This document shows, in pieces, positions 2 to 28,920 of a stretch of 64,000 nucleotides of DNA (its first letter is position 1; each line of letters starts with the position of its first letter). The position numbers and the translations under genes are program-made. Below the pieces are notes generated by a model, which searched no databases, had not been told where the DNA came from, and worked only from the letters and a program-made list of their open reading frames with translations. Origin of the DNA: Catenuloplanes niger (GTDB lineage: Bacteria > Actinomycetota > Actinomycetes > Mycobacteriales > Micromonosporaceae); assembly GCF_031458255.1 (NCBI RefSeq), contig NZ_JAVDYC010000001.1, forward strand, positions 5,093,001-5,157,000, in the 5' to 3' direction.

Positions 2-847
2 GCCAAGGCCGAGGCCGTCGAGGGCGGCAAGGTCAAGGTTTCCTGGAAGCCGCCGACCAGCACCGCGCTCGCCATCACCAGCTACACGGTGAAGTCGAAC
101 CCGGCCGGTAACTCCTGCGAGATCCTGGCCTCGGCCACCCCGCTGGAGTGCACCTTCGACACCGCCACGGCGGGTACGAAGTACATGATCTGGGCGAACA
201 CCGCCGCCGCGGGCAGCTCCGAGGTGACCATCGACGGCCCGGGCACCGTGCCGGGCGGCAAGCCGGGCATCCCGGCCGACGTCAAGGTGACCAACGTGGC
301 GCAGGGCCTGCGGGTCGAGTGGAACGGCGTCACCGGTGCCACCAAGTACCAGGCGATGGCCGTCGCCGCCGGCAAGTCGTTCTGGTGCGCCGCGGTCGGT
401 GCCGAGAACAAGGTCTGCACCATCCGCGGCCTGATGGGCGGCACGCAGTACACGGTCACGGTCCGCGCGGTCAACGGTGCGGTCAACGGCGACTGGTCCA
501 CGGGTGTCACCGGTACGCCGGACGCCGCCCTGCCGACCATCGTGTGGCCGGCGATCTCGCCCGCCGGTGGCGGCCTGTCGAGCAGCGGTGGGTACGTCCT
601 GTACCGCAACTCGCGGACCACCATCACCGGCTACGGCTTCAAGCCGGGCGAGTCGGTCTGGCTCTACCTGTACTCGGGCAGCATGAAGGTCCGGGTCGGC
701 GGCGCGACCGCGAAGGCGGACGGCACGTTCGCCTCGGCCATCCAGATCCCGGCGAACGCCACCAAGGGCGGCAAGCGCGTCCTGGCCGGCGGCTGGGACA
801 AGGACGGCAAGGTGCGCTGGCAGAACGCGTACCTGACGATCAAGTAA
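2..847 (+). CDS. Fibronectin type III repeat protein, 3' part only
   Basis: The reading frame is open from base 2 to a TAA at 845-847, so the 5' end lies outside the window; 281 residues are visible. Residues 1-80 are the end of one Fn3-like beta-sandwich and residues about 89-175 are a second, with the VEWNGV and YTVTVRAVN strand signatures. The last 100 residues form another beta-rich module containing YGFKPGESVWLYLYSG, which resembles Ig-like surface modules. Fn3 repeats in actinomycetes usually sit in exported wall-associated or polysaccharide-binding proteins. Export is inferred, because the N-terminus is not visible. No catalytic domain or membrane anchor is seen in this part. Confidence 0.75.
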   Translation, partial: AKAEAVEGGKVKVSWKPPTSTALAITSYTVKSNPAGNSCEILASATPLECTFDTATAGTKYMIWANTAAAGSSEVTIDGPGTVPGGKPGIPADVKVTNVAQGLRVEWNGVTGATKYQAMAVAAGKSFWCAAVGAENKVCTIRGLMGGTQYTVTVRAVNGAVNGDWSTGVTGTPDAALPTIVWPAISPAGGGLSSSGGYVLYRNSRTTITGYGFKPGESVWLYLYSGSMKVRVGGATAKADGTFASAIQIPANATKGGKRVLAGGWDKDGKVRWQNAYLTIK

Positions 848-26309: not shown

Positions 26310-26374
26310 CGCTCAGCGGTCGGCCGCCGGAAAACGGCTACGGAAAACGACTCCCGTACGGGTACGGTGCACAC

Positions 26375-26437
26375 ATGCGATACGGCCAGCTGACGACGAC
26401 GCCGGGTTCTCCCCGGCGGCGACTGTTGCTGCGCTGA
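26375..26437 (+). CDS. Threonine leader peptide (20 residues)
   Basis: A complete 21-codon frame encodes MRYGQLTTTPGSPRRRLLLR. Three consecutive ACG threonine codons stand at positions 7-9, just ahead of a terminator hairpin and the threonyl-tRNA synthetase gene. This is the layout of ribosome-mediated attenuation: when charged tRNA-Thr is scarce the ribosome stalls at the Thr run and the downstream terminator is not formed. The run of Arg and Leu codons at the end may add pausing. The ribosome site is weak, as in many leader peptides. Confidence 0.7.
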   Translation: MRYGQLTTTPGSPRRRLLLR

Positions 26438-26450
26438 CGCAGATCGACAC

Positions 26451-26488
26451 ACGCAGGCCCCGGGGCGCTCACGCTCCGGGGCCTGCGT
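26451..26488 (+). terminator. Attenuator hairpin
   Basis: ACGCAGGCCCCGG (26451-26463) pairs perfectly with CCGGGGCCTGCGT (26476-26488). Further inner pairs make a 17-bp stem with a CTCA loop. It begins 13 bases after the leader-peptide stop and ends 52 bases before the synthetase ATG, followed by a weak T-rich stretch. Confidence 0.78.
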
Positions 26489-26540
26489 CGTTCTCTGCTC
26501 CGAGCGGGCGGCCTCGGCCGTACCCCGAAGGAGTCTTGTC

Positions 26541-27746
26541 ATGATCGATCACCGCAGGCTGGGCCGGGAACTCGAACTGTTCGCGACCGACCCGCTGGCC
26601 GGCTCCGGCATGCCGCTGTGGCTGCCGGACGGCGCGGCCGCCCGGCACGCCGTGGAGGAGTACCTGCGCGAGGAGGAACGGCGCGCCGGGTACCAGCACG
26701 TCAACTCGCCGCCGCTCGGCAAGAAGGAGTTGTACCTGACCAGCGGGCACCTGCCGCACTACGCGGACGACATGTTCCCGGTGATGGCGCTCTCCGCCGA
26801 CGACGAGTTCGTGCTGAGACCGTCCGCGTGCCCGCACCACGCGCTGATCTACCGGTCCCGCGGCCGCTCCTACCGGGACCTGCCGCTGCGGATCGCGGAA
26901 CTGGGCGGCATGTACCGGGCGGAACGCTCGGGCGTGCTCGGCGGGCTCAGCCGGGTGCGCGGCATGTGGCTCAACGACGCGCACGTGTTCGCGCCGCTGT
27001 CACAGGTCGCCGACGAGGTCGACCTGGTGCTGCGCATGATCGACAAGGTGCACGCGGCGCTCGGCGTGAAACCGGCCGGCTTCCGCCTGTCGCTGCGCGG
27101 CGACGGCCCGAAATACGTCGGCGAGGGCGCGATGTGGGACCGCGCCGAGGCGATCCTGCGGGACGTACTGCGCGCGTCCGGGCGGGAGTTCGTGGCGGAG
27201 CCGGGCGAGGCCGCGTTCTACGGGCCGAAGATCGACATCCAGGTGGCGGACGCGGCCGGCCGGGAGATGACCCTCTCCACCGTCCAGCTCGACTTCCACC
27301 AGCCGGCCCGGTTCGACCTCTCCTACGTGGACGCGGCCGGTGCCCGCCAGGTACCGGTGATGATCCACCGCAGTCTGGCCGGCAGCATGGAGCGGCTGTT
27401 CGCGTACCTGATCGAGGTGCACGAGGGGGCGTTCCCACTGTGGTACGCCCCCCGCCAGCTCCAGGTGCTGCCGATCTCCGCCGCGCAGGACGACGCGGCA
27501 CGCGAGTTCTGCCGCGCGGCGGTGTACGCCGGGCTCCGCGCGGAGGTGGTGGCGGACGGCTCCGTGTCGTCCCGGGTACGACGCTCCGCACAGCAGCGCG
27601 TGCCGTACGCGGCCATCATCGGCCCGGCCGAGGCGGCATCCGGCGAGGTCTCGCTGCGCCCACGCAACCGGCCCGGCCTCGCCCCGATGCCGGCCGACGC
27701 GGCACTGCGCCGCCTCGTCACCGAGGCGAACCCGCACCTGGCCTAG
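26541..27746 (+). CDS. thrS: Truncated threonyl-tRNA synthetase paralogue (catalytic and anticodon domains only)
   Basis: The 401-residue protein aligns with the C-terminal part of ThrRS. It has the class II catalytic core with motif 2 around RVRGMWLNDAHVF and motif 3 in IHRSLAGSMERLFAYLIE, then an anticodon-binding domain (about 300-401). The three zinc ligands of ThrRS are conserved (Cys97 in RPSACPHH, His148 in NDAH, His276 in VMIHRS), so it should still recognise threonine. The N-terminal TGS and editing domains, about 240 residues in standard ThrRS, are missing. It is probably a stress-induced or resistance-type second copy. The ATG has AAGGAG seven bases upstream. Expression is controlled by the Thr leader. 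Confidence 0.85.
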   Translation: MIDHRRLGRELELFATDPLAGSGMPLWLPDGAAARHAVEEYLREEERRAGYQHVNSPPLGKKELYLTSGHLPHYADDMFPVMALSADDEFVLRPSACPHHALIYRSRGRSYRDLPLRIAELGGMYRAERSGVLGGLSRVRGMWLNDAHVFAPLSQVADEVDLVLRMIDKVHAALGVKPAGFRLSLRGDGPKYVGEGAMWDRAEAILRDVLRASGREFVAEPGEAAFYGPKIDIQVADAAGREMTLSTVQLDFHQPARFDLSYVDAAGARQVPVMIHRSLAGSMERLFAYLIEVHEGAFPLWYAPRQLQVLPISAAQDDAAREFCRAAVYAGLRAEVVADGSVSSRVRRSAQQRVPYAAIIGPAEAASGEVSLRPRNRPGLAPMPADAALRRLVTEANPHLA

Positions 27747-28291: not shown

Positions 28292-28819
28292 TTCCACGGC
28301 CCACCGTCACCCGACGCGGCGCGGTTCGGCTTGCCACGCCTCGCGGCTCGGTTCGGTTCGTGGGTTGCCATGCCGCGTGGCCGGCCATGCGCCACGGCCC
28401 AGCTTGCTTCGCGGCGCGGGTTCCCTCGCGGCCCGGTTGCCATGCGGCGCCGGTTGCCTCCCGTTTCGTCTCGGGCCGCGTCTCGTCTTGCGCCGCGTTT
28501 CGCCTCGGGCCGCGTTTCGTCTCGGGCCGCGTCTCGCGCCGTGCCGTGTCTCGCGGCGCCGCGCCGCGCGGCCAGACGTGCGTCCTGGCGCGGCGATGCT
28601 TCGCGGCGCGGGTTGCCATGCGGTGCGGTTCGCTACCGCCGGGCGGATCCGGTCCCGCAACCGGCACAACCCACCCACGGCCGGCGCCACCGCGGCGCGG
28701 GTTGCTTCGCGGCGCGGCTTGCCATGCGGTCCGGCTCGCCTCGCGGCCCTGGTTGCCGTGCCGCGGGGCTTGCCATGGGTCACGGCGCGGCTTGCTTCGC
28801 GGGCGGGTCCGCGCCGCGC
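28292..28819. other. Low-complexity gene-free stretch
   Basis: 528 bases of shuffled short words such as TTGCCATGC, GGCGCGGGTT, CGTTTCGTCTCGGGCCGCG and CGGCGCG. All plus-strand frames are largely open because stop codons are absent. None has a recognisable protein, a ribosome site or normal codon bias. I see no gene here. Confidence 0.6.
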
Positions 28820-28907
28820 GGGTTGCCACGCGGCGCGGATTGCCACGCCGCGCGGGTTGCCACGCGGCGCGGATTGCCACGCCGCGCGGGTTGCCACGCG
28901 GCGCGGG
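28820..28907. repeat. 34-bp tandem repeat built of 17-bp halves
   Basis: Two identical 34-base units (28820-28853 and 28854-28887) and a partial third. Each consists of two similar 17-base halves starting TTGCCACG. The array runs almost to the stop codon of the ABC permease gene at 28921. Confidence 0.85.
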
Positions 28908-28920
28908 TTATGTCACGGCG

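Follow-up and report, generated by a model that had tools for sequence, protein, structure and literature searches.

In the window, the whole 64,000-nt stretch of Catenuloplanes niger DNA that was analysed, we found a gene for a spare threonyl-tRNA synthetase (ThrRS) that is apparently switched on by ribosome stalling at the threonine codons of an upstream leader. The best explanation, to which we give a probability of roughly three in four, is that a WhiB7-type promoter and a threonine attenuator together drive a short, ACG-free ThrRS gene that would stay translatable in shortage and restore Thr-tRNA. The order along the DNA is a leader open reading frame (ORF) encoding MRYGQLTTTPGSPRRRLLLR, a first hairpin (hairpin 1), a terminator-like hairpin of 17 pairs and then a ThrRS devoid of an editing domain. 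A preliminary description of this DNA had delimited the feature to 26375-27746; it starts further upstream, the promoter at 26330-26368 being part of it. The predicted WhiB7-type promoter, the probably leaderless character of the leader and the threonine-poor coding sequence free of ACG go beyond that description.

The leader ORF extends from ATG to TGA at 26375..26437 (+ strand, 20 codons) and, as had been described, carries three consecutive threonine codons, ACG ACG ACG, at 26393..26401 (+). At all 54 short-ThrRS loci the leader consisted of three threonine codons and then proline, and these putative sensing codons were ACG in 51, 54 and 54 of the 54 loci at positions 1 to 3. Thr-Thr-Thr-Pro leaders were also present at 19 of 20 named loci, a set that includes Micromonospora, Plantactinospora, Streptomyces, Kitasatospora, Amycolatopsis, Actinocrispum, Nocardia, Rhodococcus and Antribacter and whose species may overlap with those of the unnamed set, which brings the count to 73 of 74. 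A leader arising by chance was ruled out by comparing this figure with full-length thrS loci, none of which (0 of 38) showed a threonine-run leader with a start codon and a -10 box in a rough control that relied on gene starts estimated from where the match lay. At the exceptional named locus (L079, Streptomyces sp. ms191), the terminator-like hairpin and the ribosome binding site are still present within 300 nt before the match, and the leader and hairpin 1 are missing; this locus is possibly a natural constitutive mutant. Pairing of ACGACGACG with the hairpin tail was considered as a separate reason for ACG conservation. Their complementarity showed some excess (mean 4.15 vs 3.08 shuffled) and reached at least 6 in 9 of 52 loci, compared with 1.4 on average and a maximum of 6 in shuffles (L016 and L051, where the script misplaced the terminator, were dropped), but it was too patchy to account for the conservation.

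Upstream of the leader we predicted a promoter composed of a WblC/WhiB7-type box, GAAAAC (consensus GAAAWY), at 26330..26335 (+), 3 nt before a weak -35 position at 26339-26344, and a -10 box, TACGGT (consensus TANNNT), at 26363..26368 (+), with an 18-nt spacer and 6 nt to the leader start codon. The arrangement conforms to GAAAWY-N3-(-35)-16..19-TANNNT, and the start site is likewise predicted; the WblC consensus, as described in the available part of the source, comprises the GAAAWY box, a TANNNT -10 element and a start 7 or 8 bp after it (PMC7157823). In 54 of 54 loci a TANNNT ended 6-9 nt before the leader start codon (4-9 nt being allowed), while shuffled upstream sequences placed a -10 box in 2.5 loci on average and 9 at most (200 rounds); the leader is therefore probably transcribed leaderless. 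The strict GAAAWY box at the published spacing was found in 17 of the 54 loci, the window included, and in 0 of 200 shuffles, and a loose rule added weaker variants in 17 further loci. It was missing from 37 of the 54, all four congeners of the window among them. The genome of the window encodes a WhiB-family protein (L070) with RKRPRGRPRK near its end, and we take an RGRP AT-hook in such a protein to be the mark of WhiB7. Five loci of one family (L047, L051, L054, L056 and L062, family f34) share an inverted repeat, ATCCTA...TAGGAT, with a few variants, roughly 75-100 nt upstream of the threonine codons and before the promoter, which is possibly an operator.

Hairpin 1, CGCCGGG-TTCTC-CCCGGCG (26400..26418, +), stands directly after the threonine codons, and a ribosome stalled there would mask its 5′ arm. 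The second hairpin, ACGCAGGCCCCGGGGCG-CTCA-CGCTCCGGGGCCTGCGT (26451..26488, +), has 17 pairs, one of them G-U, and a CTCA loop, and ends 52 nt upstream of the ThrRS start at 26541. The predicted fold of 26376-26500 was 6.4 s.d. below dinucleotide shuffles. What had been described as a 17-bp terminator is thus present as a 17-pair hairpin; its tail, CGTTCTCTG, is a weak T tract with 4 T in 9, and the list of a consensus terminator scan does not include it, so that "terminator-like" is the safe word.

To look for an antiterminator, transcript prefixes ending with the terminator 5′ arm were folded twice, once complete and once lacking the bases that a stalled ribosome would cover, and pairs between the hairpin 1 loop plus 3′ region and the terminator 5′ arm were counted, with a threshold of at least 5; these prefix folds represent equilibrium, not kinetics. 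An antiterminator was predicted in 53 of 54 loci when the stalled-ribosome part was removed and in 16 of 54 without removal, the single miss in the stalled state being L051, one of the two loci with a misplaced terminator. Among the 23 loci of the window's type it formed in 23 of 23 when stalled and in 1 of 23 (L006, a congener) when unstalled, so that 22 of 23 are predicted to switch. The 31 Streptomyces-like loci gave 30 stalled and 15 unstalled, with switching predicted in 15 of 31 and an antiterminator without a stall as well in 15. In the stalled window, the 5′ side of the proposed antiterminator (26411..26420, +) overlaps the 3′ arm of hairpin 1 and the 3′ side (26457..26465, +) lies inside the 5′ arm of the terminator-like hairpin; the prefix fold pairs 26411-26416 with 26460-26465 and 26418-26420 with 26457-26459. 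The window scored 10 antiterminator pairs when stalled vs 3 when unstalled, with hairpin 1 whole in the unstalled state. In prediction, then, terminator and antiterminator are mutually exclusive and a stalled ribosome frees the antiterminator, and the prefix folds fit a classical attenuator. The antiterminator arms vary little, and in L019 and L029 they change jointly from the common form; in the Streptomyces-like alignment the terminator and antiterminator columns are nearly invariant and covariation is uninformative. Together, leader conservation and prefix folds support the threonine-specific attenuator of the preliminary description, while termination itself, at a weak T tract, is a step that we infer.

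The Shine-Dalgarno sequence of the ThrRS gene, AAGGAG at 26528..26533 (+), is partly paired in predicted folds, and in the read-through fold of the window its GGAG pairs with an upstream CTCC. This pairing, if real, would speak against the attenuator model; the fold was no more stable than shuffles. We also weighed the possibility that control is mainly translational, the hairpin altering access to the ribosome binding site without termination. The T tracts are weak, and the S. lividans authors, in the accessible part of their report, call termination unclear (PMC8079986). In the 30 aligned Streptomyces-like leaders (alignment A2, 30 of 54 loci, leaving out L049 with its unrecognised start codon; alignment A3 has 23 of 54), the hairpin loop GGCGAGTG pairs with the downstream CACTCGCC in 95.8% of cells (31-59% when slid). 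An alternative helix, paired in 88.3% of cells, would cover the Shine-Dalgarno sequence and compete with this pairing. The covariation score of the GGCGAGTG-CACTCGCC pairing was reached by 2 of 500 shuffles, and 2 pairs and 6 cells had changed on both sides; as many changed cells turned up in 0 of 500 shuffles, as many changed pairs in 72. The helix over the Shine-Dalgarno sequence showed no covariation beyond shuffles (114 of 500), and the loop-downstream layer was not seen in the window, where folds downstream of the hairpin were no more stable than shuffles. These data suggest that translation is gated as well in the Streptomyces-like group; that it is the main level of control appears unlikely to us.

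A T-box or another known RNA family was ruled out by an Rfam scan of the window, which gave no match at gathering score; the 14 low-score matches of the leader, all below their families' gathering scores, included no T-box. Use of the same leader before other genes was rejected as well. The hairpin pattern has two other matches in the genome, both within long open frames, and a covariance model of the element, built from 33 of the 54 leaders, matched 16 of 118 genomes, 15 of the matches adjoining a short thrS by coordinates. The sixteenth (L273) is without hairpin 1 and looks like chance.

The gene downstream of the attenuator (26541..27746, +) codes for a short ThrRS of 401 aa with catalytic and anticodon-binding domains. 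Pfam returned PF00587 and PF03129 only, in agreement with the reduced architecture initially described, and TIGR00418 matched with 421.2 bits (cut-off 383.65) over model positions 172-563 of 565. An N-terminal editing domain, tRNA_SAD, is typical of most bacterial TIGR00418 members; Pfam did not find it in the short ThrRS, and it is present in a full-length ThrRS of the same 9.74-Mb genome (G000:C1:6728513-6729679), which shares 44% identity over the common part. The full-length thrS that the spare-enzyme reading presupposed therefore exists. Zinc ligands, which had been described as kept, are C97, H148 and H276 in the window enzyme, corresponding to E. coli C334, H385 and H511. In a comparison of 73 short enzymes (L025, in two frames, was left out), these three were invariant, as were the equivalents of R363, E365, D383, F461, Y462, G463, K465, T482, Q484, D486, R512 and R520 (E. 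coli numbering); those of Y313, Q479 and S517 vary. D383 is among the threonine-binding residues. The short ThrRS aligns over nearly its full length with solved ThrRS structures including 1evk, the E. coli enzyme (PMC11252418).

It is improbable, in our judgement, that the short protein has ceased to charge tRNA-Thr with threonine and serves another amino acid or acceptor. There is precedent for truncated synthetase paralogues that took on new roles (as described in the available part of PMC4787780), and substitutions at M332, N333 and A513 run through nearly the whole short-enzyme clade. Such a change of function is opposed by the zinc ligands and the counterparts of R363, D383, T482, Q484 and R520, invariant in 73 of 73, by the TIGR00418 match above cut-off and by the threonine-codon leader in 73 of 74 loci. 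More remote still is a spare ThrRS for zinc shortage, after the pattern seen in Anabaena, where one of two ThrRS has impaired proofreading and is induced under low zinc (PMC4787780, from the part available), since the control region here is a threonine leader behind a WhiB7-type box and the zinc ligands are kept. The preliminary description had counted the absence of editing as a price. That cost is only one possibility, given that the full-length enzyme could edit in trans, for which Anabaena offers a precedent (PMC4787780). Of its interpretation, the threonine attenuator, the conserved zinc ligands and the presence of a full-length thrS elsewhere were upheld by comparison and prediction, and other active-site positions are invariant as well.

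The best named matches of the short ThrRS were from Plantactinospora (69% identity) and Micromonospora (66%), of the family Micromonosporaceae. Short ThrRS genes were found in 26 of 61 relatives searched (in G005 in two pieces) and, when 246 genomes from the class were examined, in 40 of them at a score of at least 620 bits, plus one partial (G146); among the matches listed, full-length enzymes scored at most 471 bits. From the 246-genome set, 29 loci and the window's own were read. In a quick tree without bootstrap, 45 of the 74 short proteins formed one clade (SH-aLRT 100). Next to this clade stood the full-length ThrRS of a Gemmata, within a larger group that includes Bacillota and lies away from the actinobacterial main enzyme. 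A recent duplication of the resident thrS was ruled out by this separation. Three loci from the window's family and from Nocardia (L021, L023, L084) fell among the Streptomyces-like enzymes and had the same leader type, which suggests that leader and gene were transferred together between families. In G005 and G027 the short ThrRS is split into two frames, which may reflect gene decay in some lineages or assembly errors. Downstream of the ThrRS gene in the window, at about 28780-28920, gttgccacgcggcgcgg-like units are repeated in a GC-rich stretch of low complexity.

The most unexpected result was that the short genes avoid ACG, the codon of the leader, and are poor in threonine altogether. 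The window gene has 5 threonine codons, all ACC. In 41 genomes, ACG made up 1 of 252 threonine codons in the short genes vs 151 of 656 in the matching domains of their full-length partners; 40 of 41 short genes and 3 of 41 full-length genes had no ACG, and threonine content was 1.5% vs 4.1%, lower in 40 of 41 pairs, which share descent and are not 41 independent events, so that test values overstate certainty. The exception was L061, with 27 threonine codons, all of them ACC. Counting all 54 short genes, 50 were free of ACG, and in the separate set of 20 named loci ACG amounted to 3 of 208 threonine codons (17 of 20 genes without it). Surrounding genes gave another picture: ACG was 718 of 2302 threonine codons in 95 neighbouring open frames of the named loci, picked by composition, one of which was without ACG, and 103 of 274 in 11 window genes, the short gene included. 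Other codons differed little between short and full-length genes (GCG 0.44 vs 0.47, CCG 0.67 vs 0.71, TCG 0.42 vs 0.47, CTG 0.66 vs 0.68), and GTG, CGG and GGG were somewhat higher in the short gene. High expression as the cause was rejected, several codon families being less biased than in full-length thrS (AAA 22.4% vs 0.5% of lysine codons, the full-length side comprising 35 of the 41 genes). Among the tRNA places found in the genome there is one tRNA-Thr gene each for GGU, CGU and UGU, and ACC and ACG are accordingly read by different tRNAs. According to selective-charging theory, a leader employs the codon whose tRNA is the first to become uncharged, whereas charge can persist on other isoacceptors; in E. 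coli the codon of the thr leader is ACC (available part of PMC1183508). The split between ACG in the leader and ACC in the gene fits this theory, and the short gene looks built for translation when charged tRNA-Thr is short.

Putting these elements together, we propose that transcription from the WhiB7/WblC-type promoter, to which WhiB7 would bind, starts with the A of the leader's ATG and that a ribosome translates the three ACG codons. With charged tRNA-Thr plentiful, the ribosome would pass, hairpin 1 would form and the 17-pair hairpin would end transcription. If the ACG-reading tRNA is uncharged, the ribosome would stall on top of the hairpin 1 5′ arm, leaving the 3′ arm free to pair with the terminator 5′ arm, and transcription would enter the short ThrRS gene. 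With few threonine codons and, in the window, no ACG, its message would still be translatable in shortage, and the new enzyme would help to restore Thr-tRNA beside the full-length, editing enzyme as the main ThrRS. The leader ACG codons may be served by tRNA-Thr(CGU), perhaps also UGU, and a gene purged of ACG and of most threonine would be translated almost only via tRNA-Thr(GGU), which theory lets stay charged. We tentatively extend this to a rescue synthetase exempt from the very shortage it senses and, with the WhiB7-type promoter and an altered borrelidin-contact pocket, to a general actinobacterial defence against natural ThrRS inhibitors, an idea we hold at well under even odds.

That pocket bears on a reading that overlaps with the attenuated rescue gene and differs in what was selected: the short enzyme would mainly be an inducible ThrRS resistant to inhibitors such as borrelidin-like products, comparable to the auxiliary TrpRS of Streptomyces coelicolor, and the attenuator would sense the effect of the drug. 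Four positions equivalent to borrelidin contacts are altered in the short enzymes: at M332 all 73 have S, A or G (all 26 others have M), at A513 71 of 73 carry S or G, at Q381 all 73 have L, and at L489 71 of 73 carry Q, K or R. At position 489 the window's short enzyme has Q and the full-length enzyme of its genome L. Human M411, Q460, L567 and A592 belong to the borrelidin contacts that differ in archaeal ThrRS with resistance, and E. coli L489 mutants are borrelidin-resistant (accessible part of PMC4389257); the correspondence of A592 with A513 is our own match. The WblC regulon, for its part, counters translation inhibitors (PMC7157823, available text). Some of these residues occur in full-length enzymes too, L489 being Q and Q381 being M in 3 of 6 actinobacterial ones, Q381 being L in 3 of 20 others and A513 being G in 2 of those 20. 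Human L567R, at the place of L489, is inactive (available text of PMC4389257), and threonine-poor, ACG-free coding also fits plain starvation. An obafluorin-type change (G463S) was ruled out, G463 being kept in 73 of 73. Judged from these residues, resistance of the short enzyme to a ThrRS inhibitor, raised in the preliminary description, is plausible; that it was the main target of selection we consider possible and the less probable reading.

The rescue gene under threonine attenuation would amount to a natural, widely kept test of selective-charging theory, in which the leader and the coding sequence use different threonine codons at nearly all loci. On a single gene it would combine two signals of stress, one for translation in general through WhiB7 and the other uncharged tRNA-Thr, and it hints that soil bacteria that make antibiotics may have an intrinsic defence against inhibitors of ThrRS. 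Already known are the thrS leader of S. lividans, the control of thrS2 by WblC and an attenuated auxiliary TrpRS; in the open-access literature, with few subscription papers covered, we came across no account of the antiterminator, of the ACG split or of the low threonine content. Vecchione and Sello reportedly showed that the auxiliary TrpRS1 of S. coelicolor is under ribosome-mediated attenuation and confers indolmycin resistance; there, as here, a second synthetase follows a leader with its own codons, for tryptophan instead of threonine. The thrS2 gene of S. coelicolor is presumably SCO3778 and encodes, we assume, a short enzyme. Listed in the WblC regulon, this second thrS is WblC-activated and has the consensus box, -10 and start as predicted here, and the available text mentions no attenuator such as the one described here (PMC7157823). 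The actinobacterial trp, trpS and leuS attenuators also combine a leader peptide with competing hairpins before aminoacyl-tRNA synthetase genes; a thrS attenuator is not among them, the word thrS being absent from the accessible text (Seliverstov 2005, PMC1262725). In Anabaena an accurate constitutive ThrRS (T1) is paired with an induced one of impaired proofreading (T2), and the heterodimer edits in trans; according to the part of the source available, induction follows zinc shortage, unlike the threonine leader found here (PMC4787780). ObaO and the ThrRS of borrelidin producers resemble the present enzymes in being additional or modified ThrRS whose inhibitor pocket differs (PMC11252418, PMC4389257, in their available parts); ObaO has S at G463 (PMC11252418), where the short enzymes have G in 73 of 73, and the residue numbers given for the borrelidin producer's enzyme imply a longer protein than the short ThrRS (PMC4389257). 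A further counterpart is thrL-thrS of Streptomyces lividans TK24 (SLIV_19412/SLIV_19410). Its leader has two threonine codons vs three here, and the accessible part of the report describes neither an antiterminator nor a WblC box and contains no analysis of codon pattern or enzyme; in that report the leader, MKRVRPFLETTPGFVPAR, precedes thrS and is transcribed leaderless (PMC8079986). It resembles the Streptomyces-like leaders described here, and from this leader we infer that SLIV_19410 is a short enzyme.
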